Shown one piece after another: positions 1,823 to 59,721 of a DNA stretch of 64,000 nt (positions are counted from its first letter, which is position 1; each line of letters starts with the position of its first letter). The notes under the pieces are model-generated. The model saw nothing but the letters and a program-made list of their open reading frames with translations. It was not told the origin of the DNA and made no database searches. Both the position numbers and the translations under genes were made by a program. The stretch is from the NCBI GenBank assembly GCA_003215555.1, contig QCKE01000006.1:1-64000 (forward strand), given 5' to 3'. Origin of the DNA: Prochlorococcus sp. AG-409-K04 (GTDB lineage: Bacteria; Cyanobacteriota; Cyanobacteriia; PCC-6307; Cyanobiaceae).

Positions 1823-1904
1823 GGGAGCGTGGTGGAATTGGTAGACGCACCGCACTCAAAATGCGGCACCTTCGGGTTTGTCGGTTCAAGTCCGACCGCT
1901 CCCA
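1823..1904 (+). tRNA. tRNA-Leu (anticodon CAA)
   Basis: This is a class II tRNA: acceptor GGGAGCG pairs with CGCTCCC, the D arm carries the leucine-type GTGGAATTGG, and the T arm has GGTTCAAGTCC. The anticodon stem CCGCA/TGCGG holds CTCAAAA, so the anticodon is CAA (reads UUG). The discriminator is A1904 and CCA is not encoded. The argD ATG follows after only 8 nt, so 3' processing of the tRNA also creates the 5' end of the argD mRNA if they share a transcript. Confidence 0.97.
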
Positions 1905-1912
1905 TTTGTTTA

Positions 1913-3097
1913 ATGGATACATATAAAAGGCTTCCACTGAAACTGATAAAAGGTAAAGGGTGTTGGGTATGGGATGATAAAGGGAAAAAATACTTAGACG
2001 CAGTTGCTGGCATAGCTTCATGCAGTCTTGGTCATAGTGATAAAAAGTTGGCAGCAGTTTTACGTAAACAACTCAACACCATTCAGCACATATCAAACCT
2101 TTATCAAATATCAGAACAAGAGGAATTAGGAGAGTGGCTAGTAAGCAATAGCTGTGCTGAAAAAGTGTTTTTTTGCAACAGTGGTGCTGAAGCAAATGAA
2201 GCTGTGATCAAATTAGCTCGTAAATATGGACATCAAAAAAAACAAATTTCTGAGCCTATAATTCTATGCGCAAAATCAAGTTTTCACGGTCGGACACTTG
2301 CAACCATTAGTGCAACAGGACAAGAAAAGTATCATAAAGGCTTCGAGCCATTGGTGCAGGGTTTCAGTTTTTTTGAATATAACGACCTAACTTCTTTTAT
2401 CAATTTACAAAAACAGATTGAAGAAAATGGTCCACGGATAGCAGCAGTATTAATAGAACCTATTCAAGGAGAAGGTGGGATTGTACCTGGCAATATATCT
2501 TTCTTCAAACATTTAAGAGATCTTTGCACTAAACATAAAATTCTACTGGTTTTTGATGAAGTCCAAACAGGTATGGGTAGAACTGGGACTTTATGGGGAT
2601 ATGAAAATTTAAATATTGAACCAGATGCTTTCACTCTGGCCAAAGGATTAGGAGGCGGGCACGCAATTGGAGCTCTACTTGTAAAAGAAAAGGCAAATAT
2701 ATTTGAACCTGGCGACCATGCAAGTACTTTTGGAGGAAATCCTTTCGCTTGCAAAGCCGCCTTAACAGTTGCAACAGAAATACAAAATAGAAAAATCCTC
2801 GTGAATGTAAACGTTAGAGGAGAGGAGTTGAAAGAAGGTCTACGAGAAATTGTTGCTATTTATCCAAATGACCTACAAGAAGTAAGAGGTATTGGTTTAA
2901 TGCAAGGCTTGGTCATAAATGAAAAAAGCAAATTAACTCCTACAAAAATTATAGAAATGGCAATTAAGGAAGGACTACTTGTCATATCTGCAGGACAAAA
3001 CGTAATCAGGGTAGTCCCACCATTAATTATTACAAAAAACGAAATCAGAAAAATATTAAAAAAGCTCAATACCACTTTCAATCTATTAATTAATTGA
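1913..3097 (+). CDS. argD: Acetylornithine aminotransferase (ArgD)
   Basis: ArgD is a PLP-dependent class III aminotransferase that converts N-acetylglutamate semialdehyde to N-acetylornithine in arginine synthesis. The 394-residue protein shows the cofactor-phosphate motif NSGAEANEA (about residues 89-97), FHGRT (124-128), the PLP-ring contact DEVQTGMGRTG and the Schiff-base lysine in LAKGLGGG (Lys244). The open frame runs back through the tRNA-Leu gene, but those upstream codons are tRNA sequence. The ATG at 1913 is the first plausible start and matches the family N-terminus (KGKGCWVWD by residue 13). No Shine-Dalgarno sequence fits in the 8-nt spacer. The TGA stop overlaps the TTG start of folC. 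Confidence 0.95.
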   Translation: MDTYKRLPLKLIKGKGCWVWDDKGKKYLDAVAGIASCSLGHSDKKLAAVLRKQLNTIQHISNLYQISEQEELGEWLVSNSCAEKVFFCNSGAEANEAVIKLARKYGHQKKQISEPIILCAKSSFHGRTLATISATGQEKYHKGFEPLVQGFSFFEYNDLTSFINLQKQIEENGPRIAAVLIEPIQGEGGIVPGNISFFKHLRDLCTKHKILLVFDEVQTGMGRTGTLWGYENLNIEPDAFTLAKGLGGGHAIGALLVKEKANIFEPGDHASTFGGNPFACKAALTVATEIQNRKILVNVNVRGEELKEGLREIVAIYPNDLQEVRGIGLMQGLVINEKSKLTPTKIIEMAIKEGLLVISAGQNVIRVVPPLIITKNEIRKILKKLNTTFNLLIN

Positions 3098-51125: not shown

Positions 51126-52163
51126 TTGTCTAGAAGACAGTTTGGAGAAAATTCACCAGAATCTAAAAGATGGAAATTTTTCGTTAAAGACCCACTTGCT
51201 TTGCAAATCACATTTCTTGGAACAAGCTCCGGCGTACCTACAAGAAGCCGCAACGTTTCATCATTAGTCTTTCGATTACCTCAGAGATCTGAGTTGTGGC
51301 TATTTGATTGCGGCGAGGGTACTCAACACCAATTTCTTCGAAGTCAACTACGAAGCTCTCAACTAAAAAAGATATTTATTACGCATATGCATGGAGATCA
51401 TATATATGGTCTGCCTGGTCTTTTAGCAAGTTTAGGGTTGGCTGGAAATACTTCTGGAATTGAACTTTACGGTCCTTCGCCTTTAAAAGAATTTCTCAAT
51501 GGTGTTTTTAAAAGTAGTTCATCGCGTATCTCATATCCTATGAAAATAAACGCCGTTGAACAAAGTGCTCTTAACAACACAATTCTTTTCGAAGATGAAG
51601 AATTACTAGTGCGATCCTCTCCGCTTGTTCATCGAGTTCCTTCCTTTGCTTATAGAGTTGATCAAAAAGCAAAACCAGGTCGTTTTGATATTAATAAAGC
51701 AAAATCATTAAATATTCCACCTGGTCCAATTTATTCCCAATTACAAAAGGGAGAAGTAGTTCAATTAAAAGATGGCCGAATTGTTAAAGGGAAGGACTTT
51801 TGTGGACCTGATAGACCAGGATCTAGTTTTGTATATTGTACTGACACATATTTTACTGAATCAGCAATAAAACTTGCAAAAGGAGCCGATTTACTTATTC
51901 ATGAAGCAACTTTTGCTCATGAAGATCATAAAATGGCGCATGAAAGGCAGCATTCGACCTCTACAATGGCCGCCCAAATAGCGTTAGAAGCCAAAGTTGG
52001 GCAACTAGTTTTAACTCATCTCAGCCCAAGATATGCTCCTGGAAACGCACTTTCTCCAAACGATCTGTTAAAAGAAGCAAAATCAATTTTTCCTAATACG
52101 TTGCTAGCAAAGGATTTTCTTCAAATTCAAATACAAAAGCATGCAACAGTTCGTGATACCTAG
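51126..52163 (+). CDS. rnz: Ribonuclease Z
   Basis: RNase Z removes the 3' trailer of tRNA precursors. This matters here because no tRNA in the window encodes CCA. The 345-residue MBL-fold protein has [19 protein letters not shown] and the zinc motif [13 protein letters not shown] (His87, His89, Asp91, His92). [13 protein letters not shown] and THLSPRYAP complete the site. The only reasonable start is TTG 51126. It gives about 20 residues more than the E. coli-type N-terminus, so the true start may be internal, though no ATG lies before the conserved strand. Confidence 0.94.
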
Positions 52164-56805: not shown

Positions 56806-57384
56806 TTGAGGACTACTTTTGTGGCAATTTGCATACTTGTTTTTGATCAAGAAGAAAAAACCCTTCAGTTATGGAAAAACCTGCAACAAGCCAGCCCTAA
56901 AATCAACAAGTTTCAAATCATAGAACCAAATTCACAAAATCAACCAGATTCGAACAATGAAAAAAGCACCCCAAACAATGAATCACCTAAAAAATTAAAA
57001 ATTCATGAAATAGCGCTGTTTAATCCAAAAATTTCTAGAAAAGAACGACAAAGAAAAATGTCGAGATGGTTAATGCCATTTGGATTCATATCGGGTTTGA
57101 CATTTGCTGGGATGACCGATCTAAGTACCTTTTCTAGTTTTGGCTTTGGCACGACTAGTGAACCAATTTTTGGAGGAATTCTAGGAATGATTGCAGGCTG
57201 GATTGGTAGTTTTTTCGCTGCACGCAGCATCAATAACAATAAAGACGACCTTAAAAGCATTCTTAAGCGAAATGAAGAGGGTCTTTGGTTGGTTCTACTG
57301 GAAACATCCTTGGAGTCTCAACTTCCATGGCCATCTATTAATGAAATCCAACCACTAGAAGTCATCAATCTAAATCCAAATTGA
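56806..57384 (+). CDS. Conserved cyanobacterial membrane protein, unknown function
   Basis: The 192-residue product has a polar N-terminal third with a Asn/Pro/Ser-rich linker, then two hydrophobic Gly-rich helices (about 92-113 and 122-140, GGILGMIAGWIGSFFAARS). A C-terminal segment is KRNEEGLWLVLLETSLESQLPWP. A glycine-zipper pair is likely. The frame starts at a TTG (56806); a GTG five codons later is an alternative. The last codons overlap the start of the S4-domain gene by four bases (TTGA). No named family recognised. Confidence 0.65.
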   Translation: MRTTFVAICILVFDQEEKTLQLWKNLQQASPKINKFQIIEPNSQNQPDSNNEKSTPNNESPKKLKIHEIALFNPKISRKERQRKMSRWLMPFGFISGLTFAGMTDLSTFSSFGFGTTSEPIFGGILGMIAGWIGSFFAARSINNNKDDLKSILKRNEEGLWLVLLETSLESQLPWPSINEIQPLEVINLNPN

Positions 57385-58169
57385 AACTACCAAAAGAAAA
57401 ATATCTCAAAAGATCTAAACACTCTCAAGAGCTTGAGCAACTTTTAGATATCGCTCAAAAAGCTATGGATACATGGGACTCAATTTGGACAAAATTTATT
57501 CCTGCCCCTCTAAGAGAAGAAGCCATAAAAATTTTTCAGGAAATAGAAGATATAGCTTATACATCTACAGGAGGCTTCCCTCAAGCAGAACGCCAAAGGA
57601 TCCTCATATCCAGAAAAAGACAAGAGAAATTACTTTTCGAAGAAAACCCGCCAATTAGTGCAATAAAAATAGTTGGGAATTTCCTCTTTGACAGAACAAG
57701 CACTAGTGACTTTACTCAAGTATTGTCAAAAATGGGTATTCGTTCAGAAGATATAGGGGACATATGGATTTCTGGAGATAGAGGGGCCCAGGCAATATGT
57801 ACTCCGGAAGCATCAATATCCCTTGCTAATCAGAATGGACTTATAAGAGATGTAGAAATTTGCTGCAAAGCAATAGATCTTGAAGAGCTAAGGATTCCTT
57901 TTCAAAGAATTCCAAAAAGAATCACGAGTGTCGAAGCTTCGAAAAGATTAGATGCTATTGCTTCAGCAGGTTTTGGAATATCAAGGTCAAAAATTTCACA
58001 GAAACTAAAAGCAGGAAAATTGAGATTAAATTGGTGCTCAGCAAAAACTTTATCTAAAGAAATTACAGTAGGTGATCAAATTCAGCTTGAAGATAAAGGA
58101 AATATCAAAATATTGAGTCTGGAACTGACAAAGAGAGGTAGATGGAGAGTGGAATTGATAAGAGAATAA
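57381..58169 (+). CDS. Photosystem II S4-domain RNA-binding protein (YlmH-like)
   Basis: The 262-residue protein belongs to the YlmH/PSII S4 family. The N-terminal part (about 20-170) contains ISGDRGAQAIC and FPQAERQRILISRK. The C-terminal S4 domain (about 180-250) begins RITSVEASKRLDAIASAGFGISRSKI, with KLRLNWCSAK and VGDQIQLEDKG following. S4 domains bind RNA. YlmH in other bacteria acts on ribosome-related RNA and in cyanobacteria the family is labelled 'photosystem II S4', though its exact role is not settled. The TTG start overlaps the preceding TGA. Confidence 0.88.
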   Translation: MKLPKEKYLKRSKHSQELEQLLDIAQKAMDTWDSIWTKFIPAPLREEAIKIFQEIEDIAYTSTGGFPQAERQRILISRKRQEKLLFEENPPISAIKIVGNFLFDRTSTSDFTQVLSKMGIRSEDIGDIWISGDRGAQAICTPEASISLANQNGLIRDVEICCKAIDLEELRIPFQRIPKRITSVEASKRLDAIASAGFGISRSKISQKLKAGKLRLNWCSAKTLSKEITVGDQIQLEDKGNIKILSLELTKRGRWRVELIRE

Positions 58170-58245
58170 AGATTATTGAAAATTTTACTGCTAGCTTTAT
58201 TAGCAAAAGCTTTAAAATAAAACCAAACATCAAATGGTTTTGACC

Positions 58246-58317
58246 GGGCGATTAGCTCAGAGGTAGAGCACTACCTTGACACGGTAGGAGTCACTGGTTC
58301 GATTCCAGTATCGCCCA
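58246..58317 (+). tRNA. tRNA-Val (anticodon GAC)
   Basis: The cloverleaf is perfect: acceptor GGGCGAT pairs with ATCGCCC, D arm GCTCAGAGGTAGAGC, anticodon stem CTACC/GGTAG encloses TTGACAC (anticodon GAC), and the T arm is TGGTTCGATTCCA. The discriminator is A58317. CCA is not encoded. The murD GTG begins after a 6-nt spacer. Confidence 0.97.
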
Positions 58318-58323
58318 TTTCTT

Positions 58324-59721
58324 GTGACAACAACAACAAATAAAGCAATTACTATTGCAATAGGTTTAGGTCGCTCAGGAATTGCTGCAGCAAAATATTT
58401 AAATGCAAAAGGTCAGAATGTTCTAATTTTTGAAGAATCTAAGAAAGAATCTTTTCAACAATTATCTCGAGAATTAACAAAAGAAGGGATAAAAGTAAAG
58501 CTTGGAATGCCAATGCAATTTTCAAGCTTCAAGCCATGGCTTAATCAATTGCAATCCGTAGTAACCAGCCCAGGTATCCCTTGGGATCACCCAACACTAA
58601 ACCAATTAAGGAATCAAGGTATATCTATTGAAGCCGAAATATCATTGGCTTGGGAAAACTTGAAAAACATTCCATGGGTGGGAGTTACAGGAACAAATGG
58701 GAAAACAACAGTCACTCACATGCTCAATCATGTTTTAAAAAAATGTCTCATAAGTTCGAACATTGGTGGGAACGTTGGGAAGGCAGCTTGTGAGTTAGCT
58801 TTAGAATTTAAAATCTACCCTGAAACAATACCTAAATGGTTAATAGTTGAATTAAGTAGCTACCAAATAGAAAGCGCTCCAAATATCAGTCCTCGTATAG
58901 GTATATGGACCACTCTTACACCTGATCATCTAGATAGACATGGATCCATAGAAAATTATTTTGAGATTAAACGTTCTCTTATAGCAAACTCATCAATTCG
59001 TATTTATAATGGTAATGATAAATACTTGGAAAGTCACAGACCAATACTTCCTAAAGGAATATGGATTAATACAAATACCTTTCACTCAAATAACACAAAA
59101 TACGATTATTGGATTTCTAAAAATGGTAAACTGACTGAGAAAGGTAAAGAGTTATTTGATACGTCAATTCTCAACTTACCTGGAAATCATAATCTTCAAA
59201 ACCTTCTTTTAGTAACTGCAGCAGCAAGAAAAATTGGTCTATCTCCTCACAATATTGAAGCTGCTATAAGTGATTTCAAAGGAATAGAACATAGACTTGA
59301 AAAAATTGGCGCTATAAAAAATATTGAGGTTTTTAATGATAGTAAATCTACTAATTTTGATTCTGTGGAGATTGCCCTAAAAGCAATTAATAAGAAAACA
59401 ATATTGATAGCAGGTGGTCAACTAAAGAAAGGTAATAGCAAAAATTGGATAAAAGAGATACATCTTAATACCTGCGCTATAATTTTGTTCGGAGAAAGTA
59501 GATATGATTTAAAGAAAATCATAGAAATCAGCTCCTTCAAAGGAAAGATTTTTACTTTTCAAACTCTAGATAAAGCAGTAACAAAATCAGTTAATTTAGG
59601 CATTGAATTAAAAGCAAAGAGCATTCTATTTTCTCCTGGATGTGCGAGCTTTGACCAATATAATAATTTTGAAGAACGCGGAATACATTTTAAAAGCCTA
59701 ATCAAAGAATATTCAACATGA
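58324..59721 (+). CDS. murD: UDP-N-acetylmuramoyl-L-alanine:D-glutamate ligase (MurD)
   Basis: MurD adds D-glutamate to UDP-MurNAc-L-Ala with ATP. The 465-residue Mur ligase has an N-terminal Rossmann domain (AIGLGRSGIAAAKYL), the P-loop GVTGTNGKTTVTHML, ELSSYQIES, LTPDHLDRHGS and the C-terminal domain with FNDSKSTNFDS. GTG 58324 is the only start before the conserved strand. It lies 6 nt after tRNA-Val, leaving no room for a normal leader or Shine-Dalgarno sequence. Confidence 0.95.
   Translation: MTTTTNKAITIAIGLGRSGIAAAKYLNAKGQNVLIFEESKKESFQQLSRELTKEGIKVKLGMPMQFSSFKPWLNQLQSVVTSPGIPWDHPTLNQLRNQGISIEAEISLAWENLKNIPWVGVTGTNGKTTVTHMLNHVLKKCLISSNIGGNVGKAACELALEFKIYPETIPKWLIVELSSYQIESAPNISPRIGIWTTLTPDHLDRHGSIENYFEIKRSLIANSSIRIYNGNDKYLESHRPILPKGIWINTNTFHSNNTKYDYWISKNGKLTEKGKELFDTSILNLPGNHNLQNLLLVTAAARKIGLSPHNIEAAISDFKGIEHRLEKIGAIKNIEVFNDSKSTNFDSVEIALKAINKKTILIAGGQLKKGNSKNWIKEIHLNTCAIILFGESRYDLKKIIEISSFKGKIFTFQTLDKAVTKSVNLGIELKAKSILFSPGCASFDQYNNFEERGIHFKSLIKEYST

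Follow-up and report, generated by a model that had tools for sequence, protein, structure and literature searches.

The tRNA-Val gene and murD of Prochlorococcus sp. AG-409-K04 lie on the same strand with six nucleotides between them, a junction that is real and conserved in the genus and that most likely marks a tRNA-mRNA unit in which the end of the message would be set by tRNA processing. The window, meaning the whole 64,000-nucleotide stretch of DNA that was analysed, comes from a genome of 1.41 Mb in 38 contigs that is 75% complete. A tRNA-Val(GAC) gene without an encoded CCA occupies positions 58246-58317 of the forward strand (ARAGORN; Rfam RF00005, 70.9 bits) and is followed by the spacer TTTCTT (58318-58323, forward strand), which contains no Shine-Dalgarno-like triplet and is predicted to be the entire 5′ leader of the processed murD message, and then by a GTG at 58324, exactly as the original prediction had placed it. 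This GTG opens a forward-strand reading frame of 465 amino acids (58324-59721) that scores 363.2 bits against TIGR01087, above the NCBIfam equivalog cut-off of 211.95, identifying it as MurD, UDP-N-acetylmuramoyl-L-alanine--D-glutamate ligase, and its start is kept in the genus. The nearest named relatives of this murD are Prochlorococcus single cells, among which the tree also places it. Upstream, on the forward strand, the gene for a photosystem II S4-domain protein of the Sll1252 family (57381-58169; TIGR03069, 336 bits, cut-off 201.55) has its stop codon 76 nt 5′ of tRNA-Val. GTG 58324 is the sole ATG, GTG, or TTG ahead of the nucleotide-binding motif (GLG) of murD, in agreement with the earlier claim that no other start precedes the nucleotide-binding strand. 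In the murD frame, no such codon occurs 5′ of it back to a TAG at 58285, inside the tRNA, and between it and GLG the only near candidates are ATT and ATA codons (58348, 58354, and 58360).

Homologues of murD were matched in all 60 relatives searched, and tRNA-Val was present on 28 of the 30 murD loci returned, the window's own locus included. Among 80 named murD loci (the best 80 of 578), a set that overlaps with the first 30 such that some loci represent the same genome, 59 carried tRNA-Val upstream, 20 lacked it there, and the remaining one (L092) starts at the edge of its contig. Outside the family, none of 15 cyanobacteria (15 of 23 class-level genomes) carried a tRNA in the 1 kb that precedes its murD match, and a tRNA-murD linkage older than the family was rejected on this count. 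As far as seen, the linkage is a feature of the picocyanobacterial family, and its 6-nt form is found mainly in Prochlorococcus. In all 14 genomes of the genus that were examined, murD starts just past the tRNA, at +6 in 13 (12 GTG, 1 TTG) and at +8 in one (GTG), and this start is the sole ATG, GTG, or TTG before GLG in 10 of them. A quick murD tree (99 of 110 loci, with many open forks and long branches) was used to count label changes and to place the murD loci that have no tRNA; on it, the short form needs four label changes and the tRNA-less group has a single origin. The exact 6-nt spacing was rejected as a sign of selection, since one length change was seen against 0.56 expected in 13 genomes, the expectation per 6 nt being derived from seven length changes over ~75 nt upstream of the tRNA in those genomes.

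The case for a shared transcript is built from sequence patterns, in that both genes lie on the same strand, a presumed promoter stands 5′ of the tRNA, and neither a good promoter nor a terminator is seen between the two genes. The presumed promoter is an extended -10 element, TGCTAGCTT, at 58189-58197 of the forward strand, which would serve tRNA-Val directly and murD by read-through and from which transcription is predicted to start near 58204. Of 82 distinct upstream sequences, 65 contain an element of the form TG[CT]TAnn[TG]T, compared to 1.7% in mononucleotide shuffles, and the majority of sequences read TGCTAnnTT; the 17 of 82 regions upstream of tRNA-Val that are without the motif count against the explanation favoured here. 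The element at 58189-58197 is absent from the site list of a generic promoter scan, which over 58100-58420 returned a single promoter-like site, 5′ of tRNA-Val and at chance level, and no terminator-like sites were found in that interval. As no signal to stop or restart transcription is seen from the tRNA into murD, read-through from the tRNA promoter would be the simplest source of the murD message.

Given this arrangement, we lean towards the reading that the murD message is cut off the tRNA-Val transcript by RNase Z and that start-codon capture made the geometry of the junction in part of the tree. tRNA-Val(GAC) and murD would then form one transcription unit, transcribed from the conserved extended -10 promoter, which ends 48 nt 5′ of the tRNA, through the tRNA and into murD. 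From known enzymology, RNase P would be expected to cut before 58246 and RNase Z to cut past the discriminator base at 58317, the latter because the tRNA-Val gene is without CCA. The murD message would begin at this same RNase Z cut, with UUUCUU-GUG, and would be read from a 6-nt leader without a Shine-Dalgarno site. Both things that tRNA punctuation calls for, a tRNA without CCA and an RNase Z encoded in the genome, were found: CCA follows the discriminator in one of the genome's own 33 tRNAs, tRNA-Val being among the other 32, and an RNase Z gene lies at 51204-52133 of the forward strand (TIGR02651, 371.6 / 372.1 bits, cut-off 292.95), with RNase Z genes present in all seven genomes searched. 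Excerpts of a review describe RNase Z as encoded by a single gene per cyanobacterial genome and as making the tRNA 3′ end (PMC10989914).

A message with such a short leader would have precedents in the group. Median leaders are 27 nt in MED4 and 29 nt in MIT9313 (excerpts of PMC6091082), and 6-8% of primary start sites in MED4 are no more than 10 nt from the start codon (excerpts of PMC5607370), which indicates that very short leaders exist in the Prochlorococcus group. With a predicted leader of 6 nt, murD is not leaderless in the strict sense of a start codon at the very 5′ end, and it would fit the looser 10-nt definition. TTG does not work as the start of a leaderless message in mycobacteria, and GTG is weak in that role in E. 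coli (excerpts of PMC4633059). The +6 codon is TTG in G005, L048, L067, and L083, all four of which have more in-frame starts before GLG, in G005 a second TTG at +15. The presence of TTG at +6 in G005, despite its failure in mycobacterial leaderless messages, means that initiation need not be strictly leaderless.

The origin of the short spacer was examined in 68 distinct junctions with GLG within 150 nt, in 21 of which the first start lies no farther than +8 (short) and in 47 of which it lies later (longer); two of those counted as short, L094 and L097, also have ATG at +27 and +9, respectively, and may not be short, leaving 19 clear. The distance from the tRNA end to GLG is 42-48 nt in the 21 short junctions and exactly 48 nt in 17 of them, and the same 48 nt were found in six of the 47 longer junctions (L056, L057, L071, L084, L089, and L090), which start at +24 or +27 and of which L089 and L090 have AGGAG ahead of the ATG at +27. 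GGAG, AGGA, or GAGG precedes the start in 12 of the 47 longer junctions, compared to none of the 21 short ones. Because the 48-nt spacing is equal while the start codon differs, and because Synechococcus and Cyanobium widely have the longer form, this is read most simply as an upstream move of the start, in at least part of the tree, by which leader was turned into coding sequence. In most relatives with longer leaders 16-47 nt would remain between the cut and the first start, whereas in Prochlorococcus an in-frame GTG or TTG at +6 would have taken over and about seven former leader codons would have become N-terminal protein, the move presumably running in this direction. Three loci with a TTG at +6 plus a TTG at +24 (L048, L067, and L083) are possible intermediates. 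Longer junctions overall have a larger tRNA-to-GLG distance (median 61 vs. 48 nt, p = 0.009), so the argument for capture is carried by the subset in which the distance is the same; that a clear Shine-Dalgarno-like motif is present in only 12 of the 47 longer leaders also counts against it. For lineages with the unchanged 48-nt distance, a deletion of DNA at murD, in the sense of genome streamlining, was rejected as the origin of the junction.

A different arrangement was found in relatives in which tRNA-Val is not adjacent to murD. Low-light and high-light labels were given to loci from general clade features and are presumptive. TATAAATTTRATG stands at the murD start codon in all 21 loci of presumed high-light type without an adjacent tRNA-Val (L107, L110, L113, L114, L116, L117, L124-L126, L130-L135, L137-L139, L141, L142, and L061), which comprise L061 of G029 and 20 of the 80 named loci, two of these 20 having no more than 240 and 630 nt of upstream sequence. 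It was not seen at the start in L047, which has no tRNA-Val on the locus, or in the loci with a distant tRNA. In G029, tRNA-Val(GAC) lies 4.8 kb upstream of murD. When two high-light sequence groups were compared in a gapped alignment, their consensus agreed in 14 of the 16 columns directly 5′ of the ATG, compared to 10/24, 12/20, and 15/30 columns farther upstream and 13/27 in coding sequence, and 11 of those 16 columns were invariant, compared to two in the adjacent 24. With a -10 box four bases 5′ of the ATG, transcription would begin at or just inside the start codon and murD would be leaderless, which suggests that high-light murD carries its promoter on the start codon and may reach a leaderless message by another route. 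In one high-light locus, L132, the murD N-terminus and upstream DNA resemble one of the two groups and the protein clusters with the other, possibly as a result of recombination within murD.

The original prediction had further pointed to a second junction in the window, at argD, and had taken the two as a hint of a repeated device. The argD junction is present as described, with tRNA-Leu(CAA) at 1823-1904 of the forward strand (ARAGORN, Rfam) and the ATG of argD at 1913, past a spacer of 8 nt (1913-3097, forward strand; TIGR00707, 477.6 bits, cut-off 410.05). The argD start codon is homologous across relatives by the M-N/D-T-Y start of the protein; it is TTG in G001, and an extra start codon lies directly upstream of it in G001, G022, and G029. 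At this junction the spacer did shrink, with a length of 41 nt in G022 (a genome of 2.4 Mb), 8 nt in the three genomes of the genus, and 5 nt in G029. Starting from a GTG at 1829 (1829-3097), the argD frame is also open across the greater part of tRNA-Leu(CAA), so that automatic annotation could place the argD start inside the tRNA.

Across the genome, 16 of the 33 own tRNAs identified by Rfam have a homologue-supported co-directional gene downstream, and in four of these 16 the gene starts within 15 nt past the tRNA (Val 6, Leu(CAA) 8, Leu(AAG) 12, and Met 14), rising to six within 20 nt with Gln (18) and Asp (19); where several starts were possible, the choice was made by hand (for Met an ATG at +14 over a TTG at +11, for Lys an ATG at +24 over a TTG at +3). 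Besides tRNA-Val with murD and tRNA-Leu(CAA) with argD, the six pairs join tRNA-Leu(AAG) to an NGPGEL gene, tRNA-Met to a CNNM-like gene, and tRNA-Gln and tRNA-Asp to genes that, judged by their motifs, would be HAD-like and gltX, respectively. In each of the three same-genus genomes surveyed, all six pairs have the start within 20 nt, and in G001 and G003 the spacing is equal or differs by at most 2 nt. None of the 18 spacers (six pairs, three genomes of the genus) contains GGA, GAG, or AGG, an absence that is partly expected in short AT-rich spacers; these triplets were found in 0/5 spacers of G029 and in 5/6 of G022, where the spacers are longer. The recurrence that had been proposed stands, with very short co-directional junctions in six pairs and three genomes, but the excess that would set them apart does not. 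The genome-wide count of junctions within 15 nt, which had been set as the test beforehand, was not above ordinary gene spacing, with 4/16 junctions compared to 4/30 non-overlapping co-directional pairs in the window (Fisher p = 0.42) or, counting overlaps, 15/41 (p = 0.54), all small numbers in which the reference spacing comes from a simple longest-ORF caller run on the 64-kb window. The recurrence of short junctions is real and inherited, and it need not be a selected device.

Three other explanations of the murD junction were weighed against processing by RNase Z. If GTG 58324 were not the true start and murD began at an ATT or ATA farther in, its leader would be longer; the N-terminal extension of MurD is poorly conserved, as this would predict, and isoleucine codons do recur before GLG at codons -5 (11 of 14 genus genomes), -3 (12), and -1 (10). 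We regard an inner start as very improbable, because a start-competent codon stands at codon -14 (12 genomes) or -13 (2 genomes) relative to GLG in all 14, even in G007, in which the spacer is 2 nt longer and the GTG is still in frame with GLG, and because isoleucines are to be expected in a buried beta strand. murD could instead have its own promoter within the tRNA gene, the tRNA being merely the promoter's site. TTGACA, a perfect -35-like hexamer, does lie in the anticodon loop, the anticodon arm contains TACCTT (58272), the lone TAnnnT hexamer in tRNA-Val and the spacer, and a promoter-like box directly precedes murD in the relatives without the tRNA link. We consider this improbable all the same, as the best match to TATAAT in the tRNA and spacer is 3/6, the generic scan lists no site there, and the sequence thus offers a promoter inside tRNA-Val no adequate -10. 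The tRNA-Val sequence is identical in 65 of 87 loci, and this commonest sequence is found in 20 of the 21 short and 32 of the 47 longer junctions; being common to both, it indicates that the tRNA did not evolve as a promoter of murD.

murD might also be read from a long unprocessed or operon transcript that begins at the upstream gene, in which case the abutment would be ordinary compact gene order. This fits the frequency of junctions within 15 nt, which is no higher than that of ordinary spacing, and a spacer whose exact length is within the neutral indel rate. An initiating 30S subunit must occupy the region just 5′ of the start codon, which here is the 6-nt spacer. On an unprocessed transcript, the folded tRNA would end one base before that place, and the tRNA must be excised in any case; moreover, where the tRNA-to-GLG distance is unchanged, the start would have moved toward the tRNA. 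On these grounds we find this explanation unlikely and prefer release of the murD message from the tRNA-Val transcript by RNase Z. A broader version of that preferred reading is a tentative possibility, namely that low-light Prochlorococcus uses tRNA punctuation, with RNase Z release of tRNA-Val licensing murD for translation, the same rule extending to argD and as many as four other genes, so that the synthesis of cell-wall precursors and amino acids would be coupled to tRNA maturation, and that a near-leaderless murD has been kept through a change of mechanism, made by a processing cut where the tRNA abuts and by a start-codon promoter in those high-light clades in which the tRNA link was lost. 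That release by RNase Z is required for murD translation is put forward here as a hypothesis.

In E. coli, tRNA-tufB is a mixed tRNA-mRNA transcript. An archaeal tRNA-Lys lies in the 5′ UTR of TK0306 (excerpts of PMC4247193). The murD junction resembles both in placing a tRNA and a protein gene on one, here predicted, transcript, and it differs from them in that the spacer is 6 nt and the start codon would have been captured from the former leader. The junction is also like the tRNA punctuation of mitochondrial transcripts (Ojala 1981, cited in excerpts of PMC10941002), since the neighbouring message would owe its end to removal of the tRNA by RNase P and RNase Z and would keep almost no leader. 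Unlike in mitochondria, it would concern only some genes of a free-living bacterium, with a promoter that serves one tRNA-mRNA unit, a start codon six nucleotides in, and a cut that is predicted. With the leaderless and short-leader mRNAs of mycobacteria (excerpts of PMC4633059) and MED4 (excerpts of PMC5607370), murD shares a start within 10 nt and the absence of a Shine-Dalgarno site; the 5′ end is a transcription start in those messages, whereas in murD it would be a processing end bearing a monophosphate. No bacterial case of a leaderless message made by RNase Z at a tRNA was among the matches listed in the open-licence literature, nor in the excerpts of PMC4247193, PMC5723415, and PMC10941002, and a search of that literature for Prochlorococcus murD with a tRNA gave one unrelated paper. 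If the preferred reading is true, a free-living bacterium makes an essential message by the mitochondria's route, with the 3′ end of a tRNA and the 5′ end of an mRNA set by one RNase Z cut. The junction would also illustrate how a start codon can shift upstream to leave a leader of just 6 nt, the former leader having become protein, and the leaders of 5 to ~47 nt that follow almost the same tRNA form a natural series on which short-leader initiation can be tested in cyanobacteria.

Several minor features of the locus and its relatives were also observed. A hairpin of eight pairs is predicted in the 5′ leader of the tRNA-Val precursor (58218-58242, forward strand; RNA fold -5.0 kcal/mol, z -2.8 vs. 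200 mononucleotide shuffles), and when 16 leaders were folded, the predicted hairpin directly 5′ of the tRNA gave z values from 0.0 to -5.3, with a mean of -2.1. The RNase Z gene lies ~6 kb 5′ of the tRNA-Val-murD junction on the same strand, and the two are also ~6 kb apart in G001. In seven loci (L078, L080, L085, L086, L088, L136, and L069), 300-545 nt separate tRNA-Val from murD, and the gap in such loci holds a small frame on the opposite strand with a common ending like ESEITWIKLHQMFDR (7/8 loci looked at), possibly a conserved small protein.
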